A stretch of DNA of 64,000 nt from Bacteroidota bacterium (GTDB lineage: Bacteria > Bacteroidota > Ignavibacteria > Kapaibacteriales > UBA2268), in assembly GCA_021780815.1 (NCBI GenBank), contig JAJXYC010000019.1, positions 1 through 64,000 on the forward strand, written 5' to 3'. The notes below the pieces were generated by a model. It was given only the letters and a program-made list of their open reading frames with translations, did no database searches and was not told where the DNA came from. Positions 13,644-58,429 of the stretch are shown here, piece by piece. Within the stretch, counting starts at the first letter, position 1, and the number at the start of each line of letters is the position of its first letter. A program made the translations under genes and the position numbers.

Positions 13644-13651
13644 TAATTTTG
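13644..13651 (+). promoter_or_regulatory. Putative -7 promoter box for the ClpB-half gene
   Basis: TAATTTTG ending 31 bases before the ATG at 13683. It suggests the truncated-looking gene has its own promoter and is not the 3' remnant of a broken gene. Confidence 0.45.
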
Positions 13652-13682: not shown

Positions 13683-14999
13683 ATGGATAATATCCAAGAA
13701 AAATTAAAAGAAATAGAAAGTGAAATAGAAGAGCTTAAGCAAAAAGAAATTGAACTAACAAAAAGATGGAAATTAGAAAAAAGCATTATTCAAGAAATAC
13801 AAAATTTGAAAGCTGAAATTGAAAGTACAAAAGCAATTTCTGAAAATTATGAAAGAGAAGGTAACTTAGAAAAAGTTGCAGAGATACGGTATGGCAAATT
13901 ATTTAATTTGCAAAAGAAATTAAAAGAAGCAAGCGAAAACTTAAAAGTATTGCAAGAAACAGGTAGTCTTCTTAAAGAAGAGGTAACCGAAGAGCAGATT
14001 GCAGAAGTATTATCCAAAGGGACAGGTATTCCAGTAAGTAAAATGTTAGAAACCGAACGGCAAAAAATAGTGAAGATGGAAGACAGATTGCACGAAAGAG
14101 TAATAGGTCAAGATATTGCTGTTGAAACAGTTTCTAATGCGATTAGGCGTTCACGGGCAGGTTTGCAAGACCAAAATAAACCGATAGGGTCTTTTTTATT
14201 TATCGGACCAACAGGAGTAGGGAAAACAGAATTAGCTCGTTCGCTTGCTGAATTTTTATTTGATAATGAAAATGCAGTAATAAGAATTGATATGAGTGAG
14301 TATATGGAAAAATTTTCTGTATCTCGCTTAATAGGCGCACCGCCGGGATATGTTGGCTACGAAGAAGGCGGTCAATTAACTGAATCTGTACGACATCATC
14401 CTTATGCCGTTGTTCTTTTAGATGAAATTGAGAAAGCGAATGTTGAAGTTTTTAATGTTCTTTTGCAAGTTCTTGATGATGGACGTCTTACTGATGGTAA
14501 AGGGAGAACTGTTAATTTTCGGAATACTATTATCATTATGACTTCTAATATAGGTACTGATTTAATCCAAGAAAAATTTACTCAAGTTAGTGAAAATCAA
14601 TATGATTTGGTTTATCAAGATGTTCAAAATGATATTCTAAAAATTTTAAGAAAAACTTTTCGCCCTGAATTTATTAATAGAATTGATGAAACTATTTTAT
14701 TTAAGCCTTTAACAAAAAATGAAATAGCCCAAATTGCAAAAATTCATTTAAATAAACTTGTTGCTAAATTAGCACAAAATAATATTTATTTAGATTATAG
14801 CGATAAAGTATTGGATAAAATAGCAGAAATTGGATATGACCCTTATTTTGGGGCAAGACCATTAAAACGTGCTGTGCAGAAATATATATCAGACAATCTA
14901 TCTAAGAATTTGCTTGAAGGTTTATTTGGAACCAATGATTCAGTCGTAATTGATTTAGACAAAGATGGTAATATTATTTTTGAAAAACAAAAAACATAA
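13683..14999 (+). CDS. ClpB-like half protein: partial middle coiled coil plus second AAA+ domain only
   Basis: A 438-residue protein that aligns by eye with the C-terminal half of ClpB disaggregase (about 860 residues). It starts inside the middle coiled coil (residues 1-105, charged heptads, EREGNLEKVAEIRYG), then has the second ATPase domain with Walker A GPTGVGKTE (183-191 region), Walker B VVLLDEIEKA, the pore-loop segment GAPPGYVGYEEGG, sensor TSN and GARPLKR near the C terminus. The N domain, first AAA+ domain and first part of the coiled coil are missing. The 267 bases upstream show no remnant of them in any frame. Key ATPase residues are intact, so it could be an active paralogue or a partner of full-length ClpB. 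Confidence 0.85.
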   Translation: MDNIQEKLKEIESEIEELKQKEIELTKRWKLEKSIIQEIQNLKAEIESTKAISENYEREGNLEKVAEIRYGKLFNLQKKLKEASENLKVLQETGSLLKEEVTEEQIAEVLSKGTGIPVSKMLETERQKIVKMEDRLHERVIGQDIAVETVSNAIRRSRAGLQDQNKPIGSFLFIGPTGVGKTELARSLAEFLFDNENAVIRIDMSEYMEKFSVSRLIGAPPGYVGYEEGGQLTESVRHHPYAVVLLDEIEKANVEVFNVLLQVLDDGRLTDGKGRTVNFRNTIIIMTSNIGTDLIQEKFTQVSENQYDLVYQDVQNDILKILRKTFRPEFINRIDETILFKPLTKNEIAQIAKIHLNKLVAKLAQNNIYLDYSDKVLDKIAEIGYDPYFGARPLKRAVQKYISDNLSKNLLEGLFGTNDSVVIDLDKDGNIIFEKQKT

Positions 15000-56752: not shown

Positions 56753-57073
56753 AAAATTGTTGTGTTATAGTATTCTTTTTAATAATTAATAAACTTTGAA
56801 ACAGCAAAACATCTAATTTTGCCATCTTGATGTTTTCTATATGAACTGTTTGTAAATAAATTTCAATATTTTAATTTTGATAATTAGGCATTTAAAAATA
56901 CAAATTTAAAAATCTTTTTAAAAATATTGCTCTTTACAGAATAATTCATAATTTCCTTGAGTAAAAGGTTGAACAATAAAATTTAATGATTCTGGTAATA
57001 AAAATTTATATTGTATGTAACTTTTTATAAAAATTTACGTCTAATTTATAAATGTTAAATGAGAGGTGTTGAA
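56753..57073. other. Intergenic region upstream of the DUF6515 gene
   Basis: About 320 bases of AT-rich sequence between divergent genes. The last part holds the GAGAGGTG ribosome site (57061-57068) of the next gene. No convincing promoter box, tRNA, hairpin or small gene was seen in the rest. Confidence 0.5.
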
Positions 57074-58429
57074 ATGAAGACGAAGTTAATTGTAAGTGTA
57101 ATTATTTTATTAGTATTACCGAATTTAATGCTTATTTCTCGTGAAAATCAAATTAATGCAGGAAGAACACAAATAAGAACAGAACTCCATCCTCAGTCTT
57201 CTAATTCTTATAGGGCTGTTCGTCCTCAACAATCAAGACCTGTTCAAGTTAGGCAAAGGCAAACTACAAATCATAATACATCAAGAACAGTAAAAACAAG
57301 AAGTTATCATACTAGACCTCAGGAACAAAGCATTAGTTCAAAACCACAAGTTACATCAAATAACAATTCAATTAGAACAAACAACGTGCAAGCTAATCCA
57401 CAGGTAGAAAGAGTAGCAACACAACCACAAGGAATTTCGAATAACAATGTAAATAATAATAATTCAATTAGAACAAACAACGTGCAAGCTAATCCACAGG
57501 TAGAAAGAGTAGCAACACAACCACAAGGAATTTCGAATAACAATGTAAATAATAACAATTCAATTAGAACAAACAACGTGCAAGCTAATCCACAGGTAGA
57601 AAGAGTAGCAACACAGCCACAAGGAATTTCGAATAACAATGTAAATAATAATTCAATTAGAACAAACAACGTGCAAGCTAATCCACAGGTAGAAAGAGTA
57701 GCAACACAGCCACAAGGAATTCCGAATGTTAAAGAAATAAGCGGTAATCCTCAAAATAATAATTTACCTATTGGAAATAGAAATACATTTGACCAAGCGA
57801 AAGAAGCAAAAGTTTTCCAACCAAATCCAAATGACATTGTTGCTAACCCAAATTACAAAGGCAGAACAGATTTACAAGTCGTTCAAAATCAAGCTTTCGT
57901 AAACAATGAAATTGTGGTACGCAATGGAGACAGAGGTTATGGAGAGCATCATTATAATAATGGTTATGGTGATTCGCCTTATATGCGATTTGATGCGGGA
58001 TTACACTTTCATTTTAGTAGGACATATAGAACTATGCCTTTAGGTTATAGAGATTGTTCTTGGCACAACCGGCATTATTATTGGTTTGACGGTGGATTTT
58101 ATTATTATGATAATTTCGGATTTTATTGGATGCTTCCTCCAATTGGTTTTGAAATTAACTTTATTCCAGAAAATTGCTATTATTTCTATTACAATTATAG
58201 ACCTTACTATTATTATGCAGGAGTATTTTATGTGCCAATTGACAACACTCCAAACTATGTTGTTGCTGAACCGCCAGTAGGAGCAATTATTCAATCAATC
58301 CCTGATGATGCTACCCAATTAGTTATTGACGGTCAAATTTATTTGACTTATAATAATATTATATATAAACAAGTCGATGTTGAAGGTACAACTGCATATA
58401 AAGTTGTTGGTAAATTACCTACGAAATAA
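57074..58429 (+). CDS. Exported DUF6515-like protein with tandem 32-residue repeats
   Basis: A 451-residue protein. GAGAGGTG lies just before the ATG at 57074, which also gives a proper signal peptide (KTKLIVSVIILLVLPNLML); an ATG at 57059 is ruled out by this. An Arg/Gln-rich stretch (about 20-95) leads into four tandem repeats of about 32 residues containing NNVQANPQVERVATQPQGIS. The C-terminal third is very rich in Tyr and aromatics, with PPVGAIIQSIPDDATQLVIDG, matching DUF6515 proteins of Bacteroidota, whose role is unknown. The repeat region looks disordered and basic/polar, and may be a linker or wall-binding segment. Confidence 0.75.
   Translation: MKTKLIVSVIILLVLPNLMLISRENQINAGRTQIRTELHPQSSNSYRAVRPQQSRPVQVRQRQTTNHNTSRTVKTRSYHTRPQEQSISSKPQVTSNNNSIRTNNVQANPQVERVATQPQGISNNNVNNNNSIRTNNVQANPQVERVATQPQGISNNNVNNNNSIRTNNVQANPQVERVATQPQGISNNNVNNNSIRTNNVQANPQVERVATQPQGIPNVKEISGNPQNNNLPIGNRNTFDQAKEAKVFQPNPNDIVANPNYKGRTDLQVVQNQAFVNNEIVVRNGDRGYGEHHYNNGYGDSPYMRFDAGLHFHFSRTYRTMPLGYRDCSWHNRHYYWFDGGFYYYDNFGFYWMLPPIGFEINFIPENCYYFYYNYRPYYYYAGVFYVPIDNTPNYVVAEPPVGAIIQSIPDDATQLVIDGQIYLTYNNIIYKQVDVEGTTAYKVVGKLPTK
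57368..57722 (+). repeat. Four near-identical 93-96-base tandem repeats inside the DUF6515 gene
   Basis: Units start at 57368, 57464, 57560 and 57653 (spacings 96, 96 and 93). The DNA is almost identical between units, differing at a few third positions and by one AAT/AAC codon fewer before the last unit. The last unit is shorter. This implies recent expansion by slippage or unequal recombination. Confidence 0.92.

Follow-up and report, generated by a model that had tools for sequence, protein, structure and literature searches.

The gene at positions 13683–14999 (+) of the window (the whole 64,000-nucleotide stretch of DNA that was analysed) probably encodes the second chain of a two-gene ClpB disaggregase, in which an N-terminal and a C-terminal chain make up one complete ClpB; from the sequences we put the probability of this reading at about 0.86. 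The usual picture of ClpB is of a single chain that forms a two-ring machine, with a middle domain (MD) that couples the rings and docks DnaK. Judged by its sequence, the ClpB of this genome is complete across its two halves and is cut in the distal loop of the MD.

Two half-genes that tile ClpB

The open reading frame begins with ATG and encodes 438 amino acids uninterrupted by stops. According to Pfam, NCBIfam and a whole-genome profile search, it comprises MD helices 2–4, the end of the AAA1 small domain and AAA2: it matches positions 432–851 of the NCBIfam ClpB profile TIGR03346 (E 7e-183; 431–851 in the whole-genome search), contains the Pfam domains AAA_2 (residues 166–336) and ClpB_D2-small (residues 343–422), and aligns its residue 7 with residue 440 of E. 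coli ClpB. Helices 2–4 occupy residues 2–92 (13686–13958, +) and include the conserved motif 2, GNLEKVAEIRYGKL, known as the DnaK-docking region of ClpB. Conservation in the alignment places the AAA2 Walker A motif GPTGVGKT at residue 175 (14205–14228, +), the pore loop GYVG at residue 222 (14346–14357, +), the Walker B motif VVLLDE at residue 243 (14409–14426, +) and, inside the D2-small domain (14709–14948, +), the sensor 2 motif GARPLKR at residue 390 (14850–14870, +). In the profiles and the sequence there is no N domain, no AAA1 and no MD helix 1, in agreement with the first-pass annotation, which had described a C-terminal ClpB half with a partial coiled coil and an intact second AAA+ domain. 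The predicted structure is about 50–55% identical to solved ClpB structures, and the nearest fold is that of the solved isolated ClpB NBD2. Assignment to ClpC or ClpA was rejected: the protein scores 610 bits against ClpB and 366 against ClpA, inspection of the sequence between sensor 1 and FRPEF finds no ClpP-binding IGF/IGL loop, and ClpC, which carries KIGFN at that position, is a separate gene of the same genome.

A putative Bacteroidota-type −7 box (TAnnTTTG), TAATTTTG, lies at 13644–13651 (+), recognised by its consensus match. It had been proposed as the gene's own promoter; its location 31 nt before the ATG stands, but a single copy lends the proposal little weight, because the TAnnTTTG class is enriched window-wide (167 copies observed versus ~125 expected from shuffles). 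Elsewhere in the window, 57059–58429 encodes a secreted-looking protein with near-identical repeats, NSIRTNNVQANPQVERVATQPQGI.

The host genome (2.63 Mb, 99% complete) gave four strong matches in a ClpB profile search of all contigs: two parts of ClpC, the window gene and a gene for the N-terminal half. The same search found no full-length clpB and no frame spanning both halves; the halves are separate genes. That for the N-half (441 aa) lies outside the window on another contig, at G000:C17:20307-21629 (−; equivalent to L039:6305-7630), and matches TIGR03346 positions 1–428. It encodes the N domain, the first AAA+ domain and MD helix 1, with Walker A GEPGVGKT at residue 207 and arginine fingers ALERRF at 329, and ends in ..KLKQLEIERQVLLREIKSNDFAN, where residue 433 corresponds to E. 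coli E432. The two halves thus tile the profile end to end with nothing lost. Neither reaches the TIGR03346 cut-off of 1232 bits singly; the two tandem ClpB-type AAA+ domains are present in the pair, not in one chain, and the MD is complete across it, with helix 1 on the N-half and helices 2–4 with motif 2 on the C-half. The genome also has a DnaK gene (one strong HSP70 match) and, on contig C7, a single ClpC gene of 876 aa whose second domain is 49% identical to the C-half.

The half-genes are unlinked in the host, on different contigs, and are far apart in relatives assembled as single contigs (0.41 and 2.46 Mb in G045; 0.50 and 2.15 Mb in G108). Comparison of the relatives' loci found no conserved gene neighbourhood around either half: trmH follows the C-half in close relatives only, and hslU precedes the N-half in the host genome only. 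A small ORF at L039:6140-6321 (−), MISLTKIDGSEIIVNADEIESV.., begins in the final bases of the N-half gene and resembles FlbD-like small proteins.

Position of the cut and a proposed two-chain machine

The cut falls directly past the equivalent of E. coli E432, in the distal loop that joins MD helix 1 to helix 2. Among 41 genomes in which both halves were read (one N-half being shortened by a contig end), N-halves end at the equivalents of E. coli residues 434–445 and the nearest start codon of the C-halves lies at the equivalents of 426–434. DeSantis et al. place the MD distal loop between helices 1 and 2 at Hsp104 430–446 and equate ClpB A428 with Hsp104 A430 (PMC3887210). Because the cut falls in the loop so defined, the natural break is at the regulatory tip, in a loop and not in a helix. 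In the AF2 models the N-half closes with a terminal helix at 414–440 and the C-half opens with a helix at 2–58, followed by one at 62–92. Carroni et al. found that deletion of motif 1 yields a hyperactive, toxic protein.

In ClpB/Hsp104 the strands of AAA1 are separated by the MD (PMC3887210), and the last piece of AAA1 (..EEVTEEQIAEVLSKGTGIPVSKM.., residues 97–120, 13971–14042, +) therefore sits on the C-half. It is strongly conserved, with several positions invariant in the 41 pairs, and its residues receive low pLDDT in a model of the C-half by itself. Because the C-half carries this AAA1-closing segment, the halves very probably dock non-covalently, into what would be a two-ring disaggregase dependent on DnaK; on sequence grounds, both the segment and MD motif 2 would be useless without the N-half, yet they are conserved. 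Taken alone, the C-half is modelled with low confidence at residues 91–120 (pLDDT ~56–61) and in the pore loop, and the N-half in its AAA1 small domain (~340–415, pLDDT down to 40), both from shallow alignments; such regions fit a need for the other half, though the models are suggestive only. At residue 113 (14019–14021) the window protein has Gly; in 38 of the 41 split proteins this position is Trp, the conserved residue of xWTGIPV.

We infer the following arrangement as the most likely one. The N- and C-chains would dock non-covalently: N-chain helix 1 would pair with C-chain helix 2, and VTEEQIAEVLSKGTGIPV on the C-chain would complete the AAA1 small domain. Six pairs of chains would form a two-tier ring. 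DnaK would call the ring to aggregates through MD motif 2 on the C-chain; ATP would be hydrolysed in both rings and aggregated proteins threaded through the pore. The sequences show the gene content, the breakpoint and the conservation; assembly, stoichiometry, DnaK dependence and an altered repression of such a two-chain ClpB are inferred. An engineered Thermus ClpB likewise has two rings without a covalent link: as reported where PMC4239642 cites Beinker et al. 2005, NBD1-M and NBD2 made separately support chaperone activity when combined. That man-made cut, as described there, comes after the MD, whereas the natural one lies inside it, so that helix 1 belongs to the N-chain and helices 2–4 to the C-chain. 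In a mirror-tree analysis the partial correlation between N- and C-halves was 0.66, compared with 0.38–0.50 with ClpC; leaving out the fast genome G040 lowered it to 0.35.

Retention, selection and alternative readings

Among 60 genomes (the host's own and others of its genus, family and order), 51 have both halves, five have neither, three have only the N-half and one only the C-half (Fisher p 6e-5, uncorrected for kinship). The single-half genomes (G002, G015, G026, G034) are all drafts; three of the five with neither half (G003, G030, G036) are ≥93% complete, and their lack of both fits joint loss. In the alignment of 41 pairs, neither ring shows any variation in its Walker A and B motifs, arginine fingers or pore loops. 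Nei–Gojobori dN/dS, usable for the less diverged pairs and saturated in other comparisons, ranges from 0.03 to 0.11: 0.035 (N) and 0.101 (C) for G145/G154, 0.048 (N) and 0.071 (C) for G112/G166, and, for the C-half, 0.034 (G074/G101), 0.071 (G018/G034) and 0.106 (G000/G004). With all catalytic residues invariant and dN/dS this low, the halves are not decaying, and same-length orthologues under purifying selection bear out the earlier suggestion of a conserved, functional half. The C-half frame is interrupted in two relatives, by a frame change at G037:C1:984701-985997 (L170) and by a stop at G010:C7:2482-3795 (L018), through sequencing error or early decay.

The first-pass annotation regarded the gene as standing alone and offered as roles a new single-ring machine, a regulator of ClpB or a hetero-ring partner. 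An exactly complementary N-half, on another contig and retained alongside the C-half across relatives, speaks against both the stand-alone description and the single-ring role, and there is no full-length ClpB in the genome that could be regulated. The hetero-ring idea came nearest: the protein would be a partner in a ring, supplying the second chain of a single split ClpB rather than associating with an intact one. That the C-half acts alone as a single-ring AAA+ machine, like human CLPB/Skd3, with a separate role for the N-half, is improbable: its AAA2 is complete and its fold is nearest to the isolated NBD2, but it retains MD helices 2–4 and the AAA1-closing part, which require the N-half, the halves are kept and lost together, and there is no one-gene ClpB elsewhere. 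The retained segments likewise led us to reject membership of an Skd3-like single-ring class.

We consider it very unlikely that the C-half joins or regulates the ClpC rings of its genome. The ClpC second domain is similar enough to make such a partnership conceivable, but ClpC occurs in all these bacteria, including those with one-gene ClpB, what the C-half keeps of the MD and AAA1 fits ClpB and the N-half, and lineage-specific loss of the C-half tracks that of the N-half. The chance that the split is an assembly artefact or a decaying pseudogene appears negligible. The interrupted copies in a few relatives would suit decay, but dN/dS does not; an assembly break as the cause was rejected, as each half lies inside a contig, flanked by intact neighbours, and dozens of genomes have the same split, several of them single-contig.

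Distribution, origin and relation to known ClpB forms

Within a sample of the class, split ClpB is found in families f13, f15, f19 and f22 and in the window's order, and one-gene ClpB in f11, f12, f14, f16, f18, f20, f21, f23 and f24. In the phylum sample, families f28, f30 and f43 have the split form; all seven of their tested genomes have FmoA, the hallmark of green sulfur bacteria. No split genome of the phylum sample has a one-gene ClpB match above cut-off. Across bacteria, two of 80 named loci (L071, L072) hold a split gene; nearly all of the remainder show a long frame, as expected of a single gene, and a few are cut by a contig end or have a shorter frame. In family f22 the two halves share a strand, some 5.8 kb from each other, and are separated by genes of the opposite strand, an arrangement that could be the trace of fission by insertion; at L165:2668-11123 (G101), L164 (G074) and L188 (G083) the intervening genes are methyltransferase, glycosyl and histidine-kinase-like. 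A further long Hsp100, in an 884–933-aa frame with 34–39% identity to the C-half, occurs beside split ClpB and ClpC at G058:C73:21420-22667, G051:C54:3200-4450 and G046:C141:729-1904.

In the tree of joined N- and C-halves, a supported group unites the split and one-gene members of the window's class, and green sulfur bacteria fall outside it. A single clade of all split genomes is rejected on ClpB (AU p 0.023) and not on rpoB (p 0.14); one clade of the split members of the window's class is rejected on neither (ClpB p 0.44, rpoB p 0.72; G145 left out of the rpoB topology tests). The trees suggest that ClpB underwent fission more than once, or was later re-fused: either two or more cuts were made at the same loop, or a single cut was followed by re-fusion or replacement in some lineages. 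A fuller account is less likely than not: the MD distal loop would be a site at which ClpB was cut on at least two occasions (in green sulfur bacteria and in the window's class), or on one occasion with later re-fusion, and the product would be a regulated hetero-dodecamer whose assembly and DnaK-controlled brake follow the ratio between two genes expressed independently.

Compared with the one-gene ClpB of E. coli, T. thermophilus and M. tuberculosis and with Hsp104, the window system has all the domains in the same order, both active sites and MD motif 2, but consists of two chains from unlinked genes with the MD distal loop cut. The single AAA+ domain of human CLPB/Skd3 is akin to ClpB NBD2; there, however, ankyrin repeats replace AAA1 and the MD, and the protein acts without an N-half. 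Green sulfur bacteria (f28, f30, f43) have the same two halves with the same breakpoint, although the ClpB tree separates them from the split sequences of the window's class, and their pair may have arisen separately. Chlorobaculum tepidum has two short ClpB entries in databases, ClpB1 and ClpB2. A survey of Bacteroidetes and Chlorobi published in 2007 states that one species is the only Chlorobi with this protein (PMC1887533), so the split form went unrecognised there. The literature searched, with subscription papers mostly outside its reach, holds no description of a natural two-gene ClpB; as far as we can find, the split is visible in sequence databases and undescribed as a two-gene machine.

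The split genes represent a natural, old and widespread version of ClpB, cut at the tip of the middle domain, and account for the 'short' or 'missing' ClpB of green sulfur bacteria and their relatives. They offer a ready two-component system for probing ring coupling and middle-domain repression. If the two-chain reading is true, the covalent link between helices 1 and 2, and the coupling of the rings through one chain, would be dispensable in living cells.
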